A stretch of DNA of 64,000 nt from Trichuris trichiura (lineage: Eukaryota; Nematoda; Enoplea; Trichinellida; Trichuridae), in the NCBI GenBank assembly GCA_037903355.1, contig JBAJFE010000025.1, positions 1,488,001-1,552,000 of the forward strand, in the 5' to 3' direction. Of the stretch, positions 2,776-48,176 are shown one piece after another (within the stretch, counting starts at the first letter, position 1; the number at the start of each line of letters is the position of its first letter). Under the pieces are notes generated by a model. The model did no database searches. It was not told the origin of the DNA and saw nothing but the letters and a program-made list of their open reading frames with translations. Made by a program: the position numbers and the translations under genes.

Positions 2776-5700
2776 GTTTCACGCCGCTCTTCTATGCCCT
2801 GGGTGCCCATGGACGAAGTACTTTGACTAGCGAATATTATGCCCCCACACTTATGCAGATCATTATCCCAATTTTAGGGAGCTCGCCTGAGCAACGATCG
2901 GCCTTAAAAATGAAAAAAATTTCTTTTTGCACCCTTCCTACTGTACACGTATGAACACCTAGGTATCAGTCGTTTCAAAAACTTTCAAGCGCTGTCCCCT
3001 TCAGGCAACCCACATCTTTTGTGCTCACGACGTCTCCAAAACCGCCGAAATGCTCCTGAGAAATAGGATAGGAAGGCTGGAGCGATAACGAGTCGTTTGG
3101 ATAGCGCGATAGCTTTACGCGAAACCAAATCCGAAGCAGCGGGCGGAAACGTATTCCACCATCGTTCCTGCTTTTAAGTGGCCACGTTCAGTGGCGTAGG
3201 TCCTTTGGAAACTATAGCTTCTCCTGATGACGGGGTTCGACTAAAGCCGCTCTTCTATTCCCCAGCGGGTGCATGGACGAAGCACCTTGAATATCGAATC
3301 TTATGCCTCCACACTTACGGAGGTCAACATCCTAACCTTTCGCAGCTCGTCTGAGCAACGGGAGGCCGTAAATATGAAAAACATTTCTTTTTACACTCTT
3401 CGTACGGTAAACGAACGAAAAGGAGGTACCGATCATTTCAAAATACTCATGCGCCTTCCTCTGCGCGCTAGAAAAGTCCGTTGCTCCCGAGATGTCCGTT
3501 GAAGCGTCGAGATGCTCCTGCGCAACAGGATAAGAGAGGCACAGCGATAACAAGCTTGTTTTACTGCGTGATAGCGTCACGCGAAACGAAATTTGAAGTA
3601 GCGGCCGGAAACGGATTCCTGCGTCATTTTTGCATTTAAATGGTCGTGTTCAGTCGCGTACGAGCTTTTGCAGCTATAGATCTTCTTCACGGTTGTGTTC
3701 GACTGAAGCCGCTTTCTACACTCTGTGAGTACACTGAAGAAGTAATTTTAACTAGCCAACATTCTCGTGCTACACGTATGGACAGCTGCATTCCGATTTT
3801 TCAGAGCCCGTCTCAGATACTGGAGGCCGTAAACCGGAAAAACGCCATTTCTTACATTCTTCCTACAGTTGATGAACGAAAAGCAGGTAACATTAACTTC
3901 AAAAATACACATGGGCCGTCCGCTACGCGGCGCAGATGTTTGTTGTCTCCAAATCGTCAGTAGAAGCGCGCAATTCTTTCTGCGGGATAGCTTAGCAGAG
4001 GCTGAAAGATAACAAATCTGTTTTTCAGCCTCATAGCTTCATCAATTAACTAAACCAGGTAGCGGCCAGAAACGTATTCCTGTGTCATTTTTCTTTTCAA
4101 ATAACCGTGTTCACTTGCGTAGGATCTGTGGAAGCTATGGATTTTTTTGATGACGGTATCAGAATAAACCCGCTCTTCTATACCGTGGGGCGCAGATGGA
4201 CGTAGTACTTTAACTAGCAAATATTATGCCGCTATTGTTATGGAAGCCAACGCTGAGTTTTTTCGTAGCTGGTTTGAGCAACGGGAGGGCAAAAATTTGG
4301 AAATCTTCTCCTTTTACATTCTTCTCACAGCAGAAGAACGGCAAGCGCGTAGCAGTATTTTCAAAAATACACACCAGTAGTCTGATGCACACCTGAGAAG
4401 ACGTTTCTCTGCGAAAGGACTACAGGAGAGCTGAAGTGCTCCTGCGGAATGGGAAAAGAAAGGTTAGGCGACAACGGTCCCCTTTTTCTGCTTGATCGTT
4501 TCATCTGAAGCCAAATGGAAAGTAGGGGAGAAAAACGCATTCCTGCATCCGTCTAGCTTTTAAGTGACCGTGTTGAGTAGCGTACGTGCTTTATAAGCTA
4601 CAAGTTTCCTGAATGGCGGTGTTCAACGAAAGCTGCTCGTCTGGGCGTGCAGGGACGAAATACTGTAAGTACTGAATATAATGCCCCTCTACTTATAGAG
4701 AGCAACATTACGATTTTTCGGAGATTGATTGAGGAATAAGGCGCTGGAATAATAAAAACAATTATGGTTTCACATTCTTCATACAGTAGGTGAACAAAAC
4801 GCAGGAAGCAGTATTTTCACAAATGGTCACCAGCCGTCCGATAGGCGCCGGAGAAATGCTTTAAATCTGGAACCGTAGCAGGAGCGCCAAAATGCTTCTG
4901 CTGAATAGGAAATGAAAGGCTGAGCAATAACGAGCCTGCTTTTCTGAGAGTACGCTTCTTCTGAGGCCAAGCGGAAAGTGCTGAGCAGAATGGTTTTGCA
5001 CCATCCGCAGAGCTTTAAACGTTTGTGTCGGAGCGCATAGGAGGTTTGGAAGCCACACCTCGTCTTGATCGCGGTGTTCCACTGAACCTGCTCTTCTATA
5101 CATCGAAGGCACCTGTACGAACTACTTTAACTATTTAGTATTATGTCACTAAACTTATGCATGGAAATATCCTGCTTTTTGGAAGCTGCTTGGAAAAACG
5201 CGAAGCTGGAATTATGAAAACATTTTCTTTTTTGATACTTCATACAGTACGTGAACGAAAATCAAGTAGCAGCATGTTAAAAAATGCCCGTAGGCCGTCT
5301 GCTGTAGCTCGGAATGCCTTTTGTCTACAAGAGAGCTGTAGAAGCGCTCAAGTGTCCGTACGGAATGGAAACGGATACGCTGAGCAAAAACCAGCCTGTT
5401 TTTCCTCGCGATCCCTCCATCTTTGACGAAATGGAAAGTAGCGGCAGAAACGTATTTCTACCCGGTTCTAGCTTTCAGACAGGTCTGTTGGGTCTCGCAC
5501 GAGTCTTAGAAGCTTTTGCATCTCCTGATGGTGGTGTTCCAACAAAGTCGCTCTATAATACCCTGATGTCACCTTGAGGAAGTAGTTTAACTGGAGAATG
5601 GTATGCTCCAATACTTACGCAGAGCCATACACCTAGTCTTCAGGCCTTTTGTATTCAGCGGGAGGTCCGAAATATGAAAAACTTATGGTTTTTATCCTTC

Positions 5701-13000: not shown

Positions 13001-13224
13001 TTGCTTCTTTTACGGATTGTAAGTCCCGTTGAAAAATTTGAATACTAAGTTTCCCGGAGCTTTCGGGTCAAACGCGACCTCGTCTTCAGCGGTCTTAAAT
13101 GATTCATTTAAGACCGCGTTTGACCCAAAAGCTCCGAAAAAATTAGTATGAAAATTTTTCAACGGAACTTACAATCCATAAAAAAAGCAGCCCAATATAA
13201 CTCTACGGTCTCGTACCAAGAAAC
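13001..13224 (-). mobile_element. Palindromic hammerhead-bearing element next to copia LTR
   Basis: Inverted arms of about 75 bp run from 13,001-13,075 and 13,110-13,190, both containing the GGGTCAAACG / CGTTTGACCC segment. The tail after the right arm contains ACGGTCTCGTACCAAGAA, nearly identical to the tail of the element at 33.8 kb. The copia LTR starts directly after the tail. A copy with the same layout is at 47,940-48,176. On the minus strand the left arm carries the hammerhead-like core annotated separately. Confidence 0.6.
13054..13092 (-). ncRNA. Hammerhead-ribozyme-like motif (CTGAAGA core)
   Basis: Read on the minus strand: CTGAAGA (13,089-13,083), a spacer with a GGTC/GACC stem and a GCGTTT loop, then GAAA (13,064-13,061), GCT and C. 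These fit CUGANGA, stem II, GAAA, a self-complementary AGCU stem III and a permitted C at the cleavage position. Flanking CCG and CGG give a 3 bp stem I. Three nucleotides sit between the core and stem II, more than in classical hammerheads, so activity is uncertain. Confidence 0.4.
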
Positions 13225-13365: not shown

Positions 13366-14681
13366 TTAAGTGGACTTCAACCCAAGCTGGGTCACACAGA
13401 GGCTATGCTTCGGCGAATAAAGTCCTTTAGTTAAGATATCCGCCGGCATTTGCTCTGTGGTCAAATACATTGGGTTGATGAATCCCCTCGACAAAGTCTC
13501 ACGTGCAAAGTGATATTTGATGTCAACATGCTTGGTCCTGACATGGAATACTGAATTCCGAGCAAGCATTTGAGCACCAAAATTGTCATTGTACACATCG
13601 ACTGCTTCAACAATTGACTTATCAATTTCTCGAAGGAAGGTCCTTATCCATAAGGCCTCTTTAACAGTCTCAGTTAAACTCATGTACTCAGCTTCAGTGC
13701 TGCTTAACGCCGCTGTACGCTGTTTTCTAGCTTCCCATCTCACTGCGGCATTTCCGTACTTGAAAAGGAATCCTCTATACGACTTTCTGTCAACAGGACA
13801 ACCGCCCCAATCTGCATCAGCATAACCCATTGGTGGCTTTCCTGATCGTCAATATACAAGTCCAAGATTTGAAGTGCCTTTGAGATATCATAGTATTCCC
13901 TTAGCAGCCTTCCAGTGTTCTTCAGTGTAGCTAATGTTGAATTGGCTAAGTGAACTGACAGCGTATGCAATGTCAGGTCTCGTAGCTACCGCTAAGTACA
14001 TTAGACTTCCAATTAACACCTGGTAAGGAAACCTGAGCATCTCTTCCTTGCTAACCGTAAGTGGTTTAGTCAGCTTCAAGCTGGGTGCTAGAGGAGTTGT
14101 GGCTGGCTTGCAGTTCTCCATTCCAAAACGCTTCAGAAGATTCAGCACATACAAGCTTTGAGACATCGAGATTGTTCCTTTTCTTTGATCTTGTTTGAAC
14201 TGGATTCCAAGACCATAGCTGATGGGCCCCAGATCACGGACCTTAAATGTCTTCGCCAGTTCAGTCTTAACGTCCTTTATCCACTTGACGTCGTTCGACA
14301 GCACAAAAGTGTCGTCGACATAAATTGCAACGAGCTTCAAAGCTCCATTTGTCTCTGGTACTGAATAGACACATGGGTCTGACTCTAAAGGCTTCATTCC
14401 TAAATAACGCAACTTCTCGTCTAACTTCTTGTACCATTGACGACTAGCTTGTTTAAGACCATAAATTGCTTTGCTCAACTTGCAAACAGGGTACTTCAGT
14501 TTCCGCAATTGCTGCAACCATTTACGGGCCGTGTTTAGAATTTGACTGGACAGCACCTTTTCTTGTACAATTTCCTCCAACATCTTTTCAAGCAAATCAG
14601 GTAGTTGCATGAAAATTTCTTCTTCCAAGTCACCGTTTAGAAAGGCAGTAGCAATATCAAGTTGATGAATTGAATTGAGAC
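13366..14681 (-). pseudogene. Ty1/copia polyprotein fragment: reverse transcriptase and RNase H, two stops
   Basis: One reading frame runs from 14,681 to 13,366. It opens with the copia motif LDIATAFLNGDLEEEIF, then SKAIYGLKQASRQWYKKL, the catalytic IYVDD (14,316-14,311), LVAIYVDDTFVLSND, and the RATRPDIAYAV-type end of the reverse transcriptase. RNase H follows, with YADADW, STEAEYMSL, VYNDN and the C-terminal HVRTKHVDIKYHF box, then polypurine tract and LTR. Two in-frame TGA codons (13,888-13,890 and 13,849-13,851) separate the two domains; there is no frameshift between them. Gag, protease and integrase are missing, because satellite begins abruptly near 14,682. It is therefore a 5'-truncated, inactive copy. 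The family assignment is secure. Confidence 0.92.
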
Positions 14682-15185
14682 GTAACTGGCTAATATAGTG
14701 CCTCTATACTTATGGTTAGTGCATTCCGATTTTTCAGTGCTCGTGCGAGCAACGGACAGCTGGAAACATGATAAACTGCTAGTTTTTGGATTAATGGTAC
14801 AGTAGTTAAAAGAAAAGCAGGTACCACTAATTTCAAAAATAGTGATGAGGCCTCCGGAGCGCGTGGACAAATGTTTGGCCTGCGAGAGGGCTACCGGAGG
14901 CCGCATGAAACCCTTTGTCGTCACAAAAAGACGGGTCAAACAGACACGTAACGTCTTTTCACTTTTGCGTCAAAAGAAGGCACGTCAAACTGAGACATCA
15001 TATTTTAACTGTGCGTAAATTTGTTTCACTTCGAAAAAAGGTGTTTTTAGCTTAATTAAAAAGGGTGCATGTCGACTGCAGCTGAATGTGAGAGTTGCGT
15101 GAAAAGAAAGCGAGTCAGTCTGACTTGAAATGTTATTTTGTCATCGTCGGGATAGTTTTATGTATTTGCAGTCTTTATTTGCAGT
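14682..15185 (+). repeat. Satellite-derived junction block, copy 1
   Basis: A diverged satellite monomer (anchor near 14,812) running into a non-satellite tract starting around GCATGAAACC, with ACGTAACGTCTTTTCAC and AGTCAGTCTGACTTGAAA. The same composite occurs at 19,020-19,510 and 57,480-57,970. Here it is fused to a truncated 2 kb block, whereas the other two run on into the large duplicated segment. Confidence 0.65.
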
Positions 15186-27112: not shown

Positions 27113-27540
27113 CCTTTCCATGCACCTTATTCTCAAGTAGAATGTATCTCACCCGCCCTCCCCTCCGGAAACCAATATCTAAACCCACTATTCCCTATTG
27201 GATGTGAACCCCGTATGCATGCTGGAACCTATAGTGCCTACCCTCGCCCTGCCTACTGCATACTTACACGTTGATCCCGAACTTTTCCATTTTTCTCTTT
27301 CTTTTCTTGCTCCTCTTGTTGTCCCTGTTCGTTTCTTCTCGTTTCTTTTCCGTCCTCGAATTGTCTTCTTGCATCCGTTGGTATGGATCCTAAACACGGA
27401 ACCATAAACCTTATGAAATGTTGGACTGCAACCGCGATAGAAAAGACACGCGCCAGTTGAAAATTTTATTCACGCAATCACACAAAATGTATGCGTAGAA
27501 GTGTTATTCACGAAATCAACAAATTCTTTTTTTCATTGTT
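27113..27540. other. No recognisable gene
   Basis: Short frames only, in a C/T-rich context. Nothing recognisable until the hammerhead-like motif at 27,546. Confidence 0.35.
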
Positions 27541-27545
27541 TTTCA

Positions 27546-27584
27546 GAGCTTTCGGGACTGGCCAGGTCCCGTCGTCAGCAAGTC
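27546..27584 (-). ncRNA. Hammerhead-ribozyme-like motif with perfect stem II
   Basis: On the minus strand: CTGACGA (27,578-27,572), one extra C, stem II GGGAC with loop CTGGCCA and GTCCC, GAAA (27,553-27,550), GCT, C. The core and stem II are clean. Stem I is weak here (only about three pairs including G-U), and I do not see the element's arm or tail around it, so it is probably a fragment. Confidence 0.4.
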
Positions 27585-27599
27585 AGCAGTTGTCCATTC

Positions 27600-28230
27600 G
27601 AGTAATTTTCCTGAAAAAGAAATTGTTGTCACAAAAAATCTATTTGACAAAATTTACTTATCTTTTCAAGAGGAGAGCCAAATTTCTTCAAAGTCGAACT
27701 ATAAACGCGAAATTAAAATCATTTCACATGAACAACATGCAACTGCTACAATATCCTCTTCATGCTGTAACATGCACACATGCAGCAGTGACGCGACAAT
27801 GTCGAACGACGTCCAATTCGTCCCTTTTCAAATTGTTCCACACAACCATTTGGCAATTCTAAAAACCTAAAAATGCAATTCTAATCTTGAAAATTTGACT
27901 TCCTGCAAAGGGATTACCTTATCAGCATTAGTCGCCAACGCCGTCCTTATTTGCATGTCGAAAGACTAAAACGATAAGATTAAGTTCTTGAAACTGTACA
28001 GTTTCTTTTGCTCTATTGATCACCTAAAAAACCTTGTCGCTTTCCTTTGAATGCGGAATAATTGTCGCACAAAATTCATTTGCTGTGAAGGGCACATCAT
28101 ATGCTAATGACAAGATATGCTTCGACATTGTCAAGCTGAAAGAGTAAAAAGTTATCATAATAAAACTTTTATTTTATACTTACAGGAACAGCAATATCTG
28201 CTCATCATTTCGGCAAACAGATTTTTCATC
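27600..28230. other. No recognisable gene
   Basis: AT-rich sequence. A 123-codon plus-strand frame (27,491-27,862) overlaps the hammerhead motif and has no recognisable domain. I see no splice pattern that would extend it. Confidence 0.35.
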
Positions 28231-28236
28231 AGCATG

Positions 28237-28270
28237 TTGACGACAGCATGAGACGAGTCCGGAAAGCTCT
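28237..28270 (+). ncRNA. Degenerate hammerhead-like motif
   Basis: TTGACGA (28,237-28,243, first core base changed), 18 nt spacer, GAAA (28,262-28,265), GCT, C, then TGAGAAA. Spacer length and order match the other copies, but stem II and stem I pair poorly. I read it as a decayed member of the family. Confidence 0.25.
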
Positions 28271-28439
28271 GAGAAACATTGCAGAAAACTCGCTTTTGTC
28301 AAACGAGTTTTTTCAGTAAATAACACTTCGACACAAAGACAAAAAAAGTAGCAAACAAAAGGTGCGGGGTCAAAATAAGGAACTGTGTAAAGCACAGCTG
28401 CGACTAATGGAAAAGGAGGGAGAGCGATCACAGTTCAGC

Positions 28440-29550
28440 CGATGTCGTCGACGAAAGAATCGAGAAATGAAATGAAATTTACCGTGCTCTGCACACGTCG
28501 ATGCTTATTATGCAAATTTGACCGTGACCGATAAACCTTTACACTGTTTGCTTTGCAACGAGTGTGAGTGCTCGGCTGACTAAAACGGAACGAATTATTG
28601 ACACAAACTATTTACTTTACTAACATGCCAGATTGGAAGGGCAACTGCGCAAGCCTTGGGGCAAATTTTACTTTGAGTAAACATTGCCATATACAATGAA
28701 ACTTATTATTTTTTTAAAACTGAATTTGATCCTCTCTTAAACACAAATAAAAGGCGTTATTAACGTGATTGTTTCAACAGGTGAAAACAAACGCCAAGAA
28801 TCGATGACAAAATTAAAATGCAAATCTAATGAACTTTTTTTACCCAACTTCAAAAAGTAAGGTTACCGATAGAAAATAATAATGTTCCAGTAAACAAATC
28901 GCAAATGACAAAAGCTTTATTTGTGCTTCAAAGAAACTAATAAGAATTCGTCATCGATCCAACGAAAACAACAATTTTACCTGAATGTTAAACCACAAGG
29001 AAGCCGAATGAAATGAAACGATTTATCGATCAATAAATATCGTATATGCTTCCACTAAACAATCATTTTTTCCATTCCCGTATGCAATAGAAAGATGTTA
29101 ATTAATATCAATGACAGCTCAGTTCTTAATGGTCGCCATCTATTAAGAAATGGATTAACGCTGTTCTAAGATACCTCTACTGACATGGAATTGCGGAACT
29201 TATCCATTGCCAATTTTAATCTTTAATTCTTTATCATCGCATTTCTTCATCTTTTCTCACGCTCACTGAATACACCATGCACATTAGTAAGAACTTTTTG
29301 TATGCTAATTCATCTCCATAAATCATTCTTCATTCTTTTTTGACATATTTGCAAACGAGTGAAAATTTGATCCGAAGCATATTGGGTATTTAAAGCTCCA
29401 GTACGATTTATGCAAAATAATGATCAATCTGTCCAAATTATCATTGTCAAAAATAAACAAGCGTATGTTCAAATTGAAAGTGTATGATGGTTATTGTTCT
29501 GCAGTCTTTGTTCACGTTGACAGATTCATTCTTCTGTAACACAAGTTGAT
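28440..29550. other. No recognisable gene
   Basis: AT-rich, stop-rich sequence with no domain, RNA gene or transposon terminus that I can recognise. Confidence 0.4.
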
Positions 29551-29554
29551 TCGT

Positions 29555-29945
29555 AACGGCATGATGTTTCAAGGTTCTTGGTACATCTTTACCGCTTTTC
29601 CTGTTTCTTGTCCGTGTTCGTATCTGTAATTAAACGAAGCAGCTGCTCTACCAACGGATGGATGAGCGATTATTAGAAAACGATATACAGAACCAATGCA
29701 TTCATATTTATTTCAGCGCTATCCGAACATTTCAGTTTCATAGTCGGTGAGATGAAGGAGAAATCGTTTTCGGACTTCCGAAAGAGCTCTCCTCCATTTC
29801 ACTGACGATGGAACTAGAGCGTTCTGAAAGCTCTGAAATAAAAGGTTGACTCTATTGCTCCTGTACAGTTTTTCTTAATAATCGCTCAGTCATCCGTTGG
29901 TTAACCTGTTGTTTCATGTAATTACAGATACCAACAGAGAGACAA
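29555..29945 (+). mobile_element. Palindromic hammerhead-bearing element
   Basis: Outer arms are inverted: CTACCAACGGATGGATGAGC at about 29,652-29,671 faces GCTCAGTCATCCGTTGG at about 29,884-29,900, each with TGTAATT-like sequence further out. A tail with GTAACGGCATGATG and TTCTTGG lies on the left, inverse to the tail of the 35.7 kb element. The centre holds one good hammerhead core facing right and a decayed one facing left. I could not find flanking direct repeats. Confidence 0.6.
29796..29839 (+). ncRNA. Hammerhead-ribozyme-like motif, best copy
   Basis: Stem I is ATTTCA (29,796-29,801) with TGAAAT (29,834-29,839), six pairs. The core is CTGACGA (29,802-29,808). One extra T precedes stem II, GGAAC (29,810-29,814) with GTTCT (29,821-29,825), whose last pair is G-U, closed by loop TAGAGC. 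GAAA is 29,826-29,829. GCT then completes A-GCT, a self-complementary four-base stem III that can only pair between two copies, and C (29,833) sits at the cleavage position. This is the layout of dimeric type I hammerheads known from Penelope-like elements. The nucleotide inserted after A9 is unusual but occurs in some natural hammerheads. AATAAA follows immediately. Confidence 0.55.
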
Positions 29946-30199
29946 ATAAACGGCAAAAACCTTAGAAGACCTACCAAAAACCATTCGTTTTTCTGATTAC
30001 AAGTGCGCAGCATGTGTAATAAAAGAGATTAGAAGTTTGAAATTTTTACTTACGAAATAATAATGTACCTCAGTGTTTCAAAATGGAAAGAACGCATTTC
30101 ATTCCATGAAAAGGATCACAATAAAGCCCTGTTAACATAAACACGGGTTGCTTTGTAACGGGCGCCTGTTTCATGCCTAATAAATCTTCTGCAGTTTCA

Positions 30200-30390
30200 G
30201 GACATAACGGATCGTTATTTTGAAAATATTACTACCTGCCTTTCCTTCTGGTACTGTACGCGGGCTATAAAAAAAGCCTTTTTCCAAACTTCCGACCTGC
30301 AACCGCTCGAAACCGTCCAGAAAAACCGGAATGTCCCTCCGGGTAAGTACAGACGCTTAGTAATCACCCTTAATGCAATCCAGTTAAGTG
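30200..30390 (-). repeat. Isolated diverged satellite monomer fragment, inverted
   Basis: Minus-strand match to the satellite anchor region: TTTGAAAATATTACTACCTG followed by CTGTAC. It is more diverged than monomers in the arrays. Confidence 0.5.
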
Positions 30391-30499
30391 CCCCACCCAT
30401 AAAAGAACGCTTTTAATAGAAGAGAACTAGCAAGACTACCCATCGCTTACTCACCTGATCCCTGACCCGGCAGCACTACCGACAAGCTGCAAACATGGA

Positions 30500-30940
30500 A
30501 GATTTGCTTTCCGCGCGCCATTTTTCATTTCCATTCGGGTGAACCGATCGCGCTGCAAAATGGGTTCCTCATCGCTCGACAGTTGTTCTCCCATTCCGCA
30601 CGACCATTTTCGCACTCCGATAGCCCTCTCGCAGGCAAAAGTTTTCTCAAGCGCGCATCGGACGGCTGCTGAGTATTTTTGAAAATACTGCTACCTGCTT
30701 TTCGTTAATCTACTGTACCAACAATGTAAAAGAGAACTTTTTCGTATTTCCTGTCTTCCGTTGCTCAAACGAGCTCGGAAAAATCGGAATATGGTTCTGG
30801 ATAAGTATAGGGGCATAATATTCGCTAGTTCAAGTAGTACATCCATGTGCCCCCAGGGTATAGAAGAGCGGCTTTAGTCGAACACCGCTATCAAGATAAG
30901 CTATTGCTTCCAAATCTCCCTATTATACTGTCTGAAACGT
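30500..30940 (-). repeat. Isolated satellite monomer, inverted
   Basis: A nearly complete monomer on the minus strand, including TTTTTGAAAATACTGCTACC, GTTGCTCAAACGAGCTCGG and GAAGAGCGGCTTTAGTCGAAC. It lies outside any array, in opposite orientation to every array in the window. Confidence 0.8.
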
Positions 30941-30944
30941 GGCA

Positions 30945-31490
30945 TAAGTTTTTTCTTAAAAGAAAGCGTCAAAGTGATTTGATACAGATCTTCAATCGCT
31001 TGCACTACAACTGCTTAAACGGTTTCAGCAAAAAGATCAAATCGTCATGAGCAAACGGCCATTTGGTTTGTTCTCTTGGCGCTTCCAAGGTGTGTTTTTT
31101 GCGAGAGATGGTGTTTCCACTCTCCAGTATGACTCTTCCGTATAATAATGACAAGGATATTGGAATAAGAAATCGAAAACCTGTGCCTTTCACCATGGCT
31201 TAATGAGCCTGAATTACTGCAAAGCGCTCATGCACGTTACTCGACTGAAAGTCTTCATAGAAACGGGAATTTTACTCGGAAGAAATTAGGTTTTTTTAAT
31301 CGAATAGTGACCGCTGGAGGAACTTTTGCGCCAGCGAGTGATTAGCTGAAAAACGTCTACATACGTTTTTGTTTTTATGCGCGGTTGCAGCAGGCGATTG
31401 AATGCGTTTATTGCTACTGATTGTAACGAAGTCGGTTTTAAGCAATAGTAAACCTGACCATCAGTGATTCACGCACTGTAGTCCGCCATT
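30945..31490. other. No recognisable gene
   Basis: Between the inverted monomer and the hAT MITE. I see a small palindrome CTTGGCGCTTCCAAG near 31,076 and no gene. Confidence 0.35.
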
Positions 31491-31498
31491 GTTTAACT

Positions 31499-31673
31499 CA
31501 TAGTTTTTCAACCGGTTTTTGCCCCAGAACTCCCCTAGGCCTTGTCAGGGTTCCCCTAATCCTTGTAAGAGCCCACCGTTTATTGGGACAATGTCCTGCT
31601 GCATTATCCTCCAGGGCCCCCTGGCTTCCAGGGCTCCCCTAAAATCTCCCAGGGCCCACGTTGAGAAACACTG
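31499..31673 (+). mobile_element. hAT-type MITE with perfect 8 bp target duplication
   Basis: A 175 bp element starting CATAGTTTTTCAAC and ending GTTGAGAAACACTG, imperfect inverted termini of hAT type. It is flanked on both sides by GTTTAACT (31,491-31,498 and 31,674-31,681), the 8 bp duplication typical of hAT. The interior carries CAGGGCCC/GGGAG blocks resembling the left end of the 960 bp element at 9.55 kb, so the two may be related. Confidence 0.85.
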
Positions 31674-32907
31674 GTTTAACTGAAAAGAACTTCCGATCCG
31701 TTGATCATTTCGAAAAAAACGTAGCAAAATGTTAGCCACAAAAAGAGCTGTTCCCATTATCCTACGGGGTGTGCTTTTTTTTTTATTATGCATGTGCCCA
31801 TTTTAGGCAACAGTACGAAGCAGGAGAGGAGCCGCGCCGTCCAGCTGAATTGCATAGAAGCTGATCGCGTATGGCTTAGGATTGCCTTGTCTCCAAGAGA
31901 CTTATTTTATGATTTTTTTCAGGCAATCCCTGAACTAGTTCGTACCAGTTTTGGACCCCGTGCAACGCTTAAGGTACTTTTCTGTTTTTCCCAACTGTTT
32001 GTCAGGCTTTTATCGAAATCTGTAAACGTGTTTTTTCACTTATTCAATATACTAGTAGGCGGATAGAATGAAATTTTTTTCTTTAAAAATACGGTGATCA
32101 CAAACGGTGGTAATGCTGTTTTGCGCGACGTGGGCGGGAAACCATGTTACATATTTTGATTTTATTCATCAATTATTATGTATACTGAAGTTCCACATCC
32201 CGCGGCGAAGTCAATGATAGAAATCAGTTGTTATTCTGGTAAAGACGATCAAGTCGTAGTCGCTTTAAAATTGTATCTTCTCTTCTTGAAGCTGCGGAAA
32301 TATTGAATGCAACTGAGCCATTCTTGACATAATATATGCATCTTGTTCACGTTATAACAGAACTGCAAGCAGATTTGACTGACGTGGTGGCACGTTGCAA
32401 TGACAAAATGCGGTACATATAGTAAAGCAATTTTATTCATTCAATTTTTCATTTTAATGAATACCTTTTCGGCAGAAGTATAAACATAAATAACGAAGAA
32501 GAGTTGTTGGATGTTGTTCGCAATTGTATTGTTTGAACGCATGTGGCAGGGGATGCCATCAAATTGGTTACTATCGATGCACAATTCGGAAAGCAGATTG
32601 ATAGGTTCGTATTGAAAAGGTTTATAAAGATTTTATTGCTAGTTTTAGTATATCAGTTATTTAATTGTTGTTAGATTTCCGGCGGGCAGATTGAGGATTC
32701 AAAATTAATAAAAGGGGTCGTTCTAAACAAGGTTACAATTCTCGCGTTATTTTATTAGATTCCAGTTTAGAATTCCACAAATTTGAAAGTCAGACAATCT
32801 TAATTGTATCGTATTGTCAAGAATGGAATAATGTCGTCCATACTTATGCTATTTATCAGTTTTTAACTTGTACGAATGTTTAACGTTTTTGTTCGAACGG
32901 ATAATTG

Positions 32908-33126
32908 GTCTTCTGTTTCACGACTTTGGCCTGTTTGGTGTATCTGTAGGTAAACTTCAAAGTGCCTTACTAACGAATGGATGAGCAAATTGTTAGAGAA
33001 ATTACAGAACAAATTCTGTACTGCATGTTTCGGAACTGCTCTTGTTCTGTCGTCAGCAGTAACTCGTGAACCAGAAGACCAACTATGAAACAACCTAAGC
33101 CTGTTAAAAGACACCTCGTCTTTCGC
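32908..33126 (-). mobile_element. Single-armed hammerhead-bearing element, 12 bp flanking repeats
   Basis: Lies inside the CCT3 pseudogene, between AACGGATAATTG (32,896-32,907) and AACGGATATTTG (33,127-33,138), an imperfect 12 bp direct repeat. It contains the hammerhead-like core, the arm sequence (CTTACTAACGAATGGATGAGC at 32,964 onward, compare CTACCAACGGATGGATGAGC at 29.65 kb) and a tail with AAGCCTGTTAAAAGACACC similar to the other members. Confidence 0.6.
33019..33061 (-). ncRNA. Hammerhead-like motif with compensated stem I
   Basis: On the minus strand: stem I TACTG (33,061-33,057), CTGACGA (33,056-33,050), one extra C, stem II with GAAC, loop AAGAGCA and GTTC, GAAA (33,031-33,028), CAT, G, then CAGTA (33,023-33,019) completing a perfect five-pair stem I. 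The stem I sequence differs wholly from ATTTCA/TGAAAT at 29.8 kb yet still pairs. The base at the cleavage position is G, which hammerheads do not tolerate, so this copy is probably inactive. Confidence 0.45.
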
Positions 33127-33791
33127 AACGGATATTTGCTTGAGTGTTTTTCAGGCATCGTTTAAATGTTCAAATATGGCTTCCGTAACATATATGCATG
33201 AAACTAAAAAGAAAACTGTGAAAGCCTTGCGTGATAACATGAACTAAAGCTGAATTTAGTTCTCTGCTAAAAAGGTGTTTTCGATTAGGCTCAACATTTC
33301 CTCGTAATGAAAAATATATCCGTGATTCGTCGCATAAGAAGAACGGACAGTGATCGCTTAGCAAAGTATTTCCTATTAGAGACTGCGTTAATGAATTTTC
33401 AAAATTTTCTTTTAAATTTCAGATTAACAGGTGCAACGGTTGCTCACGATCCAGTCGATCTGACCGAACATGACGTAGGAACAAAAGCATCTGAACTTTA
33501 TGCAGAAACAATTGGCGCTGAGTAAATATCCAATTTGTCAAATCTTTTTTATTAGACTTTTTTTACAAATGATTGATAGGAACTTCACATTTGTGATTAA
33601 TGATGAGGACGCTGAAGCTTGCATATTGTTGCCTCGAAATCCCAATAAGGACATACTGATGGAAATGGATCGAAATTTACAAGATGCATTGCACGTTGTT
33701 GGCAATGTATTCCTGAATCCAAAAGTACTTCCCGGTGGTGGTGGTGCTATTGAAATAGCGTTGGCTCAAGTTTGGTATAGATTTATTCACT

Positions 33792-34058
33792 CATGTCGAG
33801 TTTCTTTTACGGAAAGTCTGTCCAGTTGACAATATTTCTATTCCGGAGGTTTCGGGTCAAACGAGACCCGTCTTTAGCGTTATTAATATAATATTAAGTA
33901 TATATAATAGTTATAATATTATATTAATAACGCTGTAGAGGTGTCTCGTTTGACCCGAAAGCTCCGGAATAAAAATATTGTCAACTGGACAGACTTTCCG
34001 TAAAAGAAACTCGACATGAAACTACACGGTCCCGTACCAAGAAGTTACACTTACAAAA
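33792..34058 (+). mobile_element. Near-perfect palindromic element with 13 bp target duplication
   Basis: Bounded by AGATTTATTCACT at 33,779-33,791 and 34,059-34,071. The first 227 bp (33,792-34,018) are a palindrome with arms of about 108 bp (CATGTCGAGTTTCTTTTACG at one end, its inverse at the other; centre TA-rich). A 40 bp unpaired tail follows, containing CACGGTCCCGTACCAAGAAG, the sequence also found beside both copia LTRs. Each arm carries a decayed hammerhead-like core, the better one being CTGTAGA ... GAAAGCTCCGG followed by AATAAA near 33,950-33,973. It lies in a CCT3 intron. Confidence 0.75.
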
Positions 34059-34084
34059 AGATTTATTCACTTTTGCTTATTTTT

Positions 34085-34375
34085 GAAAACAGAACGTTTT
34101 ATAACGGGCTGATGTTTCATGGTTTCTTAGATCTTCTACGGCTTTTTCCGTTCTTGTCTGCGTTGGCATCTGCAATTTAAACGAAACAGTTGCTCTACCA
34201 ACGGATGGGTGAGCGATTACTAGGAAAAATTGGACAGGATCAATACACTGAAGTTTAATTTTCATAGCTTTCGGAACGCTCTATCTACGTTGTCAGTGAA
34301 ATGGAGGAGAACTCTCCTCCATCTCACTGACGACGGAACTGCGTTGAGGTAAAAGAAAAATTGAGTTGTTGGCTC
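34085..34375 (-). mobile_element. Palindromic hammerhead-bearing element
   Basis: The left end carries the inverse of the family tail (AACGGGCTGATGTTTCATGG at about 34,103-34,122), then arm sequence CTACCAACGGATGGGTGAGC at 34,195. The centre GTCAGTGAAATGGAGGAG (34,291 onward) faces CTCCTCCATCTCACTGAC. The right half is short and decayed. It lies where a CCT3 exon is expected. Confidence 0.55.
34259..34302 (-). ncRNA. Hammerhead-like motif, one core base changed
   Basis: On the minus strand: stem I TTTCA with TGAAA, CTGACAA (34,296-34,290; G8 of the core changed to A), AACG with CGTT as stem II, GAAA (34,272-34,269), GCT and A at the cleavage position. The fold is kept, but the G8 change should abolish catalysis. 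Confidence 0.4.
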
Positions 34376-34679
34376 TCACAATAAGTTCTCCATTTATACT
34401 ATTTTTCAAGCACACAGACGCGAAAAATGAAACATTGGGCATCAACGCTATAACCGTTGAGATGGCTGACAGGAATAAGCTGAATTTGCAGAATGCATTG
34501 ACAGTTTGCCCACAAGTACACAAAAGAGCTATTGAAGTACGTTTTTCACTTTTTGTTCTCTCTTTTTTTATGTTTCAGTTTCGGACACCAATTCTGCTGC
34601 TGCACGTTGATGAAATACTAAGTGGATTGCAGAAAAAACGGACGCTGATAAATCTGAGCAGAATTAACGGCATATAAAG

Positions 34680-35669
34680 CGAAGCCAATTGAAATTTAAA
34701 ATAAAGATGTTCCAACGGAACTGTCGTTGTATTTACAAGTTGCGCAATGGTAAAGTTGTCGTAATATGTTTTTGCTGTTGAACACAGGCTGTCTTTTAGC
34801 GGGATTCCATTTTTCCGTGAAGGCCTTTCCCGCGACAGGCGAATCTCAACTGAAGACCGGTATAAAAGTATCGTTTTTGCATGCACCTTTCATTGGTGTT
34901 CAGTTTGTATTCTCATCTGAAAATGTTTCGTTTTCAACCGTTTTACGCAACTGTTGGCTGCTATAAGAGCTGACAGGTGAGCATTTATAAGTTAGACCTA
35001 AACGAAATGGTCAGTTTTAAGGATCATATTTTGCAACATGGTTGTTTAAGGTCAAAGAATCTTAGTCCGATAGAGAGACATTACGATAGGCAATATTACT
35101 ATGCAACATATTCACTGAACGTTTTACCGAAATAATTGCTGTTTCTTTCAGCAGCCTTTCCAAACTAAGTATGAACTTGTAATCAATGAAGAATCAAGTT
35201 TATACAAACGGTAAGTAAGTTTGCATAAGAAAAAAGCAAGTTACTGACAAGGAAGACATACTGTTACATAAAGTAAACGCTAACTTAAATGTATATGCAT
35301 CATTTAAACTAATTTTCTATAATCAGCTTCAAGGTGATTTTTTACTGGAAGTTTTCCATACCATTTTGGCCTCAACAAGATGAATAATAATGTGTTGTGA
35401 TGTAAGTGATTATTTTGTTTTGCCATCGGGCATCAAAGCTTTATGTTTTCAACTGCCATTAGTCTCAGCTTACCGTAGCGGCTGTTTCCGGCCAAGATAG
35501 AGACCGCCGTAGCTTCTATGGACGTCGTCACAACGGCTTTTAGATGAATTAACCAACATAAAAGTGGCATGCTGCATTAAGCAATACGTGCAGCTCACCT
35601 GTAAACTCAGTTTTCTTGTAGCAGCGCTCAGCTGGTGATTTGCAGGTTGCGTACTGTCTCATTGAGCAT
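34680..35669. other. No recognisable gene
   Basis: Downstream of the CCT3 remnant. AT-rich with short frames and no transposon ends that I can support. Confidence 0.35.
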
Positions 35670-35682
35670 ACTTTATTTGATT

Positions 35683-36102
35683 TTCATGACTTTTGTATGC
35701 GGTATGTTCTCTTGCCCGTTGATGGAGTCTGGAATTAAACCGAAGCAGATGCCCTACCAACGGACGCATTAACCGTGACAAAGGGGTGGAGGTCAGCTCG
35801 ATATGGACATCTGTGACCAGTAAAACGGGTTGTTGTTCCATACTGACTGGGGCCCCTCCCGTCTCCTATAAATACGCTCACATCGTAGTGAAAGTGACAT
35901 TACCACCATCGCTGACGACGGCACAAGGTTAGCCCGGAAAGCTACGAATCTGTTGAGTGTTTGTTCTTAATTTTCATCCGTTGGTAGGGCATTTGCTTCA
36001 GTTTAATTCCAGACTCCATCAACGGGCAAGAGAACATACCCTATTAAAGAAGTTATGAAAATCCATCGCCCCGTTAAGAACCACTCTGTCTTCAAGATCA
36101 TT
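35683..36102 (+). mobile_element. Palindromic hammerhead-bearing element with 13 bp target duplication
   Basis: Bounded by ACTTTATTTGATT at 35,670-35,682 and 36,103-36,115. Inverted arms of about 80 bp contain GGTATGTTCTCTTGCCCG and TGGAGTCTGGAATTAAACC on the left and their inverses on the right (to about 36,063). A 39 bp tail with CCCCGTTAAGAACCACTCTG follows. The centre carries the hammerhead-like core at 35,908. Read outward, each arm holds CCGTTGGTAGGGC and GGTTTAATTCC, similar to the tRNA D-arm/A-box region and B box but too close together for a tRNA. Confidence 0.75.
35908..35948 (+). ncRNA. Hammerhead-ribozyme-like motif
   Basis: CTGACGA (35,912-35,918), extra C, GGC ... GCC stem II with a nine-base loop, CG, GAAA (35,937-35,940), GCT, A at the cleavage position, then CGA pairing with TCG before the core (three pairs of stem I). 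Core intact, stems short. Confidence 0.4.
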
Positions 36103-47939: not shown

Positions 47940-48176
47940 AATGATAATTAGGTTGCTTCTTTTACGGATTGTAAGTCCAATTGAAAAATTTGAATACTAA
48001 GTTTCCCGGAGATTTCGGGTCAAACGCGAGCTCGTCTTCAGCGGTCTTAAATGATTCATTTAACACCGCGTTTGACCCAAAAGCTCCGAGAAAATTAGCA
48101 TTAAAATTTTTCAACGCAACTTACCATCCGTAAAAAAAGCAGCCCAATAAAACTTTACGGTCCCGTACCAAGAAAC
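47940..48176 (-). mobile_element. Palindromic hammerhead-bearing element next to copia LTR, copy 2
   Basis: Paralogue of 13,001-13,224 with the same arms and tail (TTACGGTCCCGTACCAAG), ending at the copia LTR. The minus-strand core at 48,041-48,013 is CTGAAGA ... GAAATCTC: the AGCT stem III has become ATCT, so this copy has lost the self-complementary segment. Confidence 0.6.
48006..48044 (-). ncRNA. Hammerhead-like motif, stem III altered
   Basis: CTGAAGA (48,041-48,035) and GAAA (48,016-48,013) are kept, with CCG/CGG as stem I. The stem II arms are less complementary than in the 13 kb copy, and GCT after GAAA is TCT. Likely inactive. Confidence 0.3.

Follow-up and report, generated by a model that had tools for sequence, protein, structure and literature searches.

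Six short motifs between positions 27546 and 36102 of a 64,000-nucleotide window from the whipworm Trichuris trichiura (assembly GCA_037903355.1, contig JBAJFE010000025.1, forward-strand positions 1,488,001 to 1,552,000; "the window" denotes this whole stretch) are in all likelihood minimal type I hammerhead ribozymes of Penelope-like elements (PLEs) and of short derivatives of these elements in the whipworm genome. The motifs are members, mostly worn out, of a very large dispersed hammerhead family, in which stems I (3-4 pairs) and II (5 pairs) covary, and self-cleavage and dimer action of the whipworm copies are predicted from the sequence. An earlier note on this DNA had pointed to the same six hammerhead-like sites, and all of them were present when the interval was read directly. 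The copies are dispersed repeats and are not peculiar to the single-copy core in which it placed them.

Abundance and secondary structure of the motifs

We searched 72.7 Mb of genome sequence with two patterns. The first, CTGACGAN{10,22}GAAAGCT, gave 1148 matches (578 + 570) against 7 (2 + 5) for the reversed pattern, and the second, the fixed scaffold CTGANGACGG...CCGAAAGCT (pattern CTGANGACGGN{9,14}CCGAAAGCT), gave 2867 matches against none when reversed. Since CTGACGA with any stem accounts for 1148 matches, at least 1719 of the 2867 must carry another base at N7; the CTGAAGA and CTGATGA families make up more than half of the scaffold copies.

We read 89 distinct sites with their flanks, which were chosen by their core pattern, so that conservation of the core is not independent evidence. 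The N7 position is C in 66, A in 13 and U in 10 of these sites, and H17, the cleavage-site base of these AGCU sites, is C in 49, U in 25, A in 13 and G in 2, which leaves 87 of 89 with a base other than G. In a type I hammerhead stem II is expected to adjoin A9 without insertion. Here it does not: with no nucleotide skipped after CTGANGA the pairing run is zero in 86 of the 89 sites, and with one nucleotide skipped it reaches at least five pairs in 56. Stem I has exactly three pairs in 52 sites and at least three in 63.

Removal of 42 near-identical sites left 47 for the alignment A1, one row of which (L042:994-1035) is misaligned in its 5' part. Paired cells amounted to 81.0% versus 64.1% after shuffling, and the covariation score was 0.532 versus 0.250, neither value being reached in any of 500 shuffles, while slid structures scored at most 0.208. 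The slid controls take the relatedness of sites into account and plain shuffles do not, with the reservation that a structure has an advantage when tested on the sequences from which it was built. Changes on both sides were seen in all eight pairs, and the third pair of stem I occurs as UA, CG, GC and AU. Across the copies read, the covariation test proposed in the earlier note is therefore positive, and intact copies with a permitted base at the cleavage position exist. Its observation that stem II changes between copies with pairing kept holds across copies, though not at 28.25, 33.04 and 35.92 kb, where pairing breaks at the first pair next to the core, nor at 34.28 kb, where it breaks after one pair. 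The short stem I, absent from that account, likewise changes with its pairing kept.

A few of the 89 sites (e.g. L020) lack stems and are probably chance matches. As an explanation of the motifs at large, chance matching to a loose consensus has a vanishingly small probability given the counts of 1148 versus 7 and 2867 versus 0 and a covariation score that none of the shuffles attained.

The AGCU and ACGU segments and the extra core nucleotide

The short segment in place of stem III is self-complementary in most copies of the fixed scaffold. The usual segment of this kind in Penelope-element hammerheads is ACGU. GC stands in the middle of the segment in 2867 scaffold copies and CG in 359, so that AGCU and ACGU together make up 3226 of 3435; the A-GCT complementarity proposed at the outset holds, and the ACGU mentioned alongside it occurs in a sister family. 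The other 14 letter pairs total 209 (A- or U-first 78, G then not C 102, C then not G 29), and many of these copies look like one-step changes. Neither A-GC-U nor A-CG-U is able to close within one molecule, and pairing between two is possible. Among 27 ACGU-type sites (L087-L106), stem I has at least four pairs in 17 (ACUG/CGGU, ACCG/CGGU), and the cleavage base is other than G in 24 (A 23, C 1).

The extra nucleotide between the CTGACGA core and stem II, already noted in several copies of the window, is a nearly fixed pyrimidine: after CUGANGA in the AGCU scaffold it is C in 2867 copies, U in 221, and A or G in 49. The core hence departs from the textbook hammerhead by one base. G12 is the general base of the hammerhead core. 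For one copy, the predicted folding energy is -9.7 kcal/mol with the extra C paired to the core G, versus -7.1 with the C unpaired. On the basis of this secondary-structure estimate and of the pairing of the extra base in the RNAalifold prediction, we entertain, as a long shot, a model in which the extra pyrimidine locks the ribozyme from within: as long as the RNA is alone, it might pair with G12, giving stem II one more C-G or U-G pair and keeping the ribozyme off. It is no less speculative that AGCU or ACGU pairing of two ribozymes, or a PLE protein, might then free G12 and permit cutting. If such a lock were real, cleavage would sense tandem or protein-bound transcripts, and short start-to-tail RNAs would be spared for reverse transcription. 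A lock opened by a partner or a protein is not far-fetched, because the Anolis PLE ribozyme cleaves only when its protein is present, according to the available text of PMC11167929.

Association with Penelope-like elements

The connection to PLEs suggested by the earlier note is borne out at 13 distinct sites, where a PLE frame ends 24-126 nt before a ribozyme on the same strand (tblastn with 120 of 2295 PLE proteins, as listed, against the fetched loci and the window). These sites (L010, L011, L012, L013, L022, L023, L026, L057, L059, L061, L070, L094, which is of the ACGU type, and window positions 35759-35860) exclude overlapping loci, L058, where the match runs 16 nt into the ribozyme, and L041, where the distance is 329 nt. 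Their stem II families are GGAAC, GGGAC, AGCTC and GATAC, together with the single ACGU copy, so the link is seen in AGCU families with CTGACGA and in one ACGU copy. The frames of L071 and L073, which also end shortly before a ribozyme, carry RVT_1 (E 3.9e-11 and 1.2e-8). Closest to the L071 frame are reverse transcriptase (RT) proteins of Trichuris suis (69%) and T. muris, and its relatives bear PF00078, PF28514 and PF26215. It aligns over its length with P0053, which has a PF01541 GIY-YIG domain, and the alignment runs through the start of the GIY-YIG part ('VVYELRCG-CNASYIGETG').

The locus L083 displays the start of an element. On the element strand, TATATAA lies 43 nt before the ribozyme and the frame ATG 177 nt after the ribozyme start; this ATG sits in a tail that also occurs alone elsewhere. 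L083 is preceded by an inverted tail, and L080 contains a head-to-head pair of PLE starts (1568 bp, 96%). In both, the ribozyme stands at the 5' start of the PLE, and ribozymes behind the frame were seen in other copies only. Pseudo-long terminal repeats (pseudo-LTRs) would give both positions, and the evidence for direct and inverted pseudo-LTRs with a tail comes from L079, L080, L083 and L086, from the head-to-head close pairs on contig C1 (17 of 17 in the two lists below) and from the direct pairs in L107-L109. We had also considered the units of about 200 nt as short interspersed nuclear elements, a reading dropped because the L083 tail is the start of a PLE. A possible hairpin, AACGGG...CCCGTT, was noticed by eye in the tails of L083 and L107 and is a candidate RT-start signal.

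Many short copies have inverted ends (56 nt in L013; 64-nt arms at 97% in the window), which invites the suggestion that a DNA transposon or a miniature inverted-repeat transposable element has the motifs as its terminal inverted repeats, with an accidental likeness to hammerheads. In L074, moreover, a DDE transposon lies between two GGGTC-family ribozymes oriented head to head, a pair from the CTGAAGA/CTGATGA families, and its relative in L077 matches PF03184 (E 7.8e-24). This transposon is Tigger-like (the L077 relative also matches PF03221) and has its own ends at 3221-5567, with TA on both sides, within the spacer of the ribozyme pair, and the L077 relative (about 3440-5560) has no ribozyme-like sequence at its ends; the L074 transposon therefore looks nested. 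The 13 ribozymes behind a PLE frame, the existence of direct tandems (L107) and the continuation of the L083 tail into a PLE frame also speak against such an origin, which is contradicted for the CTGACGA families and which we regard as very improbable overall.

Short copies and a proposed cycle

With the C of CTGA taken as 0 and the cut expected after +31 or +32, we recorded where similarity between copies begins. Among 186 such starts, 67 lie at -17..-8, 36 at -7..+5, 47 beyond +36, 18 before -40, 14 at +6..+28, 3 at -40..-18, and 1 at +29..+36 (L004, +33), a count biased in that loci were mostly fetched for their ribozyme content and the four queries cross-match each other's families. Most short head-to-head copies thus begin upstream of the ribozyme, and few begin where it would cut, which suggests an uncut RNA template. 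The ends at -17..-8 would fit an RNA 5' end, because the TATA at -43 predicts a start near -13. The arms of L004 (+33), L086 (+25) and L006 (+28) begin near the cleavage site and are possible traces of a cut-RNA template. The distribution bears on whether cut or uncut RNA is copied.

On contig C1, adjacent sites no more than 300 bp apart are head to head in 12 of 12 cases among 100 listed places of the CTGACGAN pattern and in 5 of 5 among 71 listed places of the ACGU family, where random placement expects 0.56 and 0.20 adjacent pairs in any orientation. Same-strand close pairs occur off the C1 lists, at L107-L109 (L108, 218 bp; L109, 98 bp). L107 (G000:C1:2085200-2086900) is a direct tandem of three 475-bp copies of the GGGCC-stem family with an inverted copy alongside, and is retrozyme-like.

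We hypothesize a cycle in which transcription would start about 13 nt upstream of the ribozyme, from a TATA promoter in the pseudo-LTR. Two ribozymes would pair through AGCU to form a joint stem III of four pairs, perhaps aided by the PLE protein, and a cut after the base following GCU would separate tandem transcripts. Reverse transcription might initiate internally, some 200 nt downstream in the tail, and run to the RNA 5' end, which would leave short start-to-tail copies. Two such cDNAs could then become joined head to head, through priming on the two cut strands of the target or through self-priming; each of these routes yields head-to-head copies. The published anatomy of PLEs, in the available portions of two papers, agrees with this explanation. 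In Adineta, Penelope elements have direct and inverted pseudo-LTRs (pLTRs), junction palindromes, tails and TATA boxes, and self-priming has been proposed (PMC3846280), and for PAc of Anolis in vitro, both strands are cut and extended, reverse transcription starts internally and the ribozyme is dispensable (PMC11167929).

Cleavage and other possible roles

The dispensability of the PAc ribozyme raises the question of whether the whipworm motif might be kept as a hairpin of the Penelope tail that is bound as DNA, as cDNA or by protein, its hammerhead likeness being inherited and unused. Extended palindromes set many of the ribozymes in long foldbacks, and copies retain sequence 5' of the cleavage site, as the single start at +29..+36 illustrates. 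In the accessible part of PMC11167929, ribozyme mutants leave insertion in vitro unaffected, none of the RNA-seq reads has an end at the cleavage site, and there is no cutting without protein. A binding hairpin, however, needs neither a stem I across the GAAA-GCUH junction nor the freedom of N7 and scarcity of G at H17 described above, nor would it call for two different self-complementary letter pairs on one scaffold. We accordingly judge an unused motif improbable and favour the interpretation as hammerheads of PLEs and their short derivatives.

Several observations weigh against that interpretation. Stem I has only 0-2 pairs in 26 of the 89 sites. Two of five covariation measures are weak: the eight double-changed pairs (6.6 after shuffling) were matched by 79 of 500 shuffles, and the 23 further pair types (20.0) by 26 of 500. 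Taken singly, pair 2 of stem I and pair 1 of stem II are not above shuffles, nor is pair 1 of stem I in the sparsest set (30 sites), and RNAalifold predicts stem II and not stem I, and has the extra base paired to the G of the core. In 3 of the 27 ACGU sites the base after CGU is G, and AGAU, which is not self-complementary, occurs in the subfamily GGAACCAGTTGAGTTCC at 15 places at least. No PLE frame was found directly before ribozymes of the CTGAAGA and CTGATGA families, of which few loci were read, and Pfam calls no GIY-YIG domain on the L071 frame even at E<=10. None of the Rfam hammerhead families matched at E<=10 in 9.6 kb of the window and six loci.

Copies within the window

A covariance model of 47 copies, whose training set includes 27540, 29796, 35906 and 13051-13095, recovered all six sites of the interval (E 6e-12 to 2e-4), three of which (28231, 33021 and 34259) are outside the training set, and additionally returned 33840-33883, 33927-33970, 13051-13095 and 48003-48047, all at E<=2e-4 (Table 1; stems scored outward from the core). 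Two sites, 27540-27584 (-) and 29796-29839 (+), retain the core, both stems and a permitted cleavage base, and the remaining four are damaged. The first reads CTGACGA-C-GGGAC...GTCCC-GAAA-GCT-C, with C as the extra nucleotide, and the second CTGACGA-T-GGAAC...GTTCT-GAAA-GCT-C, with U. The CUGANGA and GAAA core strands are unbroken at 27540, 29796, 33021 and 35906. The earlier description of the six sites needs correction at 28.25 kb (TTGACGA), 34.28 kb (CTGACAA) and 33.04 kb (GAAACAT, then G). At the last of these, pair 1 of stem II is mismatched and the next four pairs (GAAC/GTTC) hold. Of two further decayed cores that had been proposed, the one at 33.95 kb corresponds to the copy at 33927-33970, and the one at 29.73 kb, which lies in the degraded mirror arm I5, is not listed by the covariance model. 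In the explanation that we favour, the copies in the window would be insertions of this kind that are dead or dying.

Table 1. Ribozyme copies and associated repeats in the window
Feature	Position	Strand	Remarks
Copy outside the interval	13051..13095	-	E 7.1e-9; intact core letters; H17=C; stem II register shifted
Hammerhead copy, AGCU type	27540..27584	-	E 6.8e-12; intact core; H17=C; 3-pair stem I with wobbles
Damaged hammerhead copy	28231..28275	+	E 2e-4; first core base changed (TTGACGA); stem II lost
Outer inverted arms I3, 76%	29615..29936 (arms 29615-29704 / 29847-29936)	.	'Tail' downstream of each ribozyme arm
Head-to-head inverted arms I5, 76%	29707..29842 (arms 29707-29768 / 29781-29842)	.	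Around the 29.8-kb copy; left arm is a degraded mirror copy
Hammerhead copy, AGCU type	29796..29839	+	E 6.1e-12; intact core; H17=C; 6-pair stem I
Damaged ACGU-family copy	33021..33062	-	E 8.5e-5; CGT now CAT (GAAACAT), then G
Head-to-head inverted repeat I2, 106-nt arms, 94%	33791..34019	.	Encloses copies 33840-33883 and 33927-33970
Damaged copy, GGGTC/GACCC family	33840..33883	-	E 1.7e-6
Damaged copy, GGGTC/GACCC family	33927..33970	+	E 4e-6; mirror partner of 33840-33883
Damaged copy	34259..34302	-	E 2e-6; CTGACAA core; stem II lost after one pair; stem I 5 pairs
Truncated 5' half of mirror copy	34321..34350	+	E 0.28, weak
Element, 64-nt inverted tail arms I4, 97%	35701..36040	.	TATA-like CTATAAATA, frame remnant and 35.9-kb ribozyme inside
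Penelope protein frame remnant	35759..35860	+	73.5% identity to P0011; ends 52 nt before the 35.9-kb ribozyme
Copy with intact core letters	35906..35950	+	E 3.6e-10; H17=A; 3-pair stem I; stem II out of register
Copy outside the interval, GAAATCT	48003..48047	-	E 1.5e-6

The window also contains an exon-like stretch of a TCP-1/cpn60 chaperonin at 33602-33772 (+) (PF00118, E 2.3e-10), which is surrounded by the ribozyme copies at 33021, 33840-33970 and 34259, apparently intronic, and an RVT_2 (copia) reverse transcriptase fragment at 13888-14703 (-) (E 5.6e-39). Near-identical pairs at 13050/48002 and 22414/60709, about 35 and 38 kb apart, hint at repeated segments.

Comparison with known systems

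A single extra core nucleotide has a parallel in the viroid hammerhead that De la Pena and Flores are said to have described in 2001, where an A reportedly follows A9 in one viroid; the whipworm base differs in being C or U, in occurring in thousands of copies and in its ability to pair with the core G. The small direct tandems with type I hammerheads resemble animal non-LTR retrozymes, for which the available text of PMC7229834 gives canonical type I hammerheads, whereas the whipworm form is minimal in the three tandems read (L107, L108 and L109). Retrozyme units measure 150-450 bp, stand in tandem, carry canonical type I hammerheads and give circular RNAs, and L107 has three 475-bp copies with a minimal ribozyme.

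Rfam models at the gathering score gave no hammerhead match in the window; a genome search with RF00163 gave no matches either, the control genomes being likewise silent. Matches to Rfam microRNA models at E<=10 fell largely on foldback repeats. The Rfam models tried miss these families, and annotation can therefore miss them. We did not find the ribozyme in the open-licence literature on hammerheads in Trichuris and Trichinella or on PLEs in Trichuris.

The closest likenesses in element structure are to the endonuclease-type Penelope of Adineta vaga and to Anolis PAc, which, in the sections of PMC3846280 and PMC11167929 available, share the direct and inverted pLTRs, head-to-head arrangement and TATA box, a tail containing the beginning of the open frame, and a ribozyme near the 5' start. 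The open frame of PAc begins inside stem II, whereas the ATG of L083 lies 177 nt downstream of the ribozyme start.

Minimal hammerheads in PLEs are already known as a kind. As far as the accessible text of two reviews goes, hammerheads are present in every available Penelope sequence, usually in a minimal form without helix III, some of them in tandem and possibly acting as dimers (PMC6155905, PMC7761336), and the function of the minimal form in these elements is described as unknown (PMC7761336). The minimal type I hammerheads of PLEs and Terminons (Cervera and de la Pena 2014; Lunse et al. 2017; via PMC7761336 and PMC6155905) have the same order and almost no stem III, and are likewise located in pseudo-LTRs, dispersed in thousands of copies and proposed to act as dimers. 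Set against these descriptions, the whipworm family is a variant, with its extra pyrimidine, AGCU as the main segment beside ACGU, a stem I of 3-4 pairs, and no Rfam match. More generally, thousands of copies with two versions of stem III, many stem II families and a core insertion amount to a natural mutational scan of a ribozyme.

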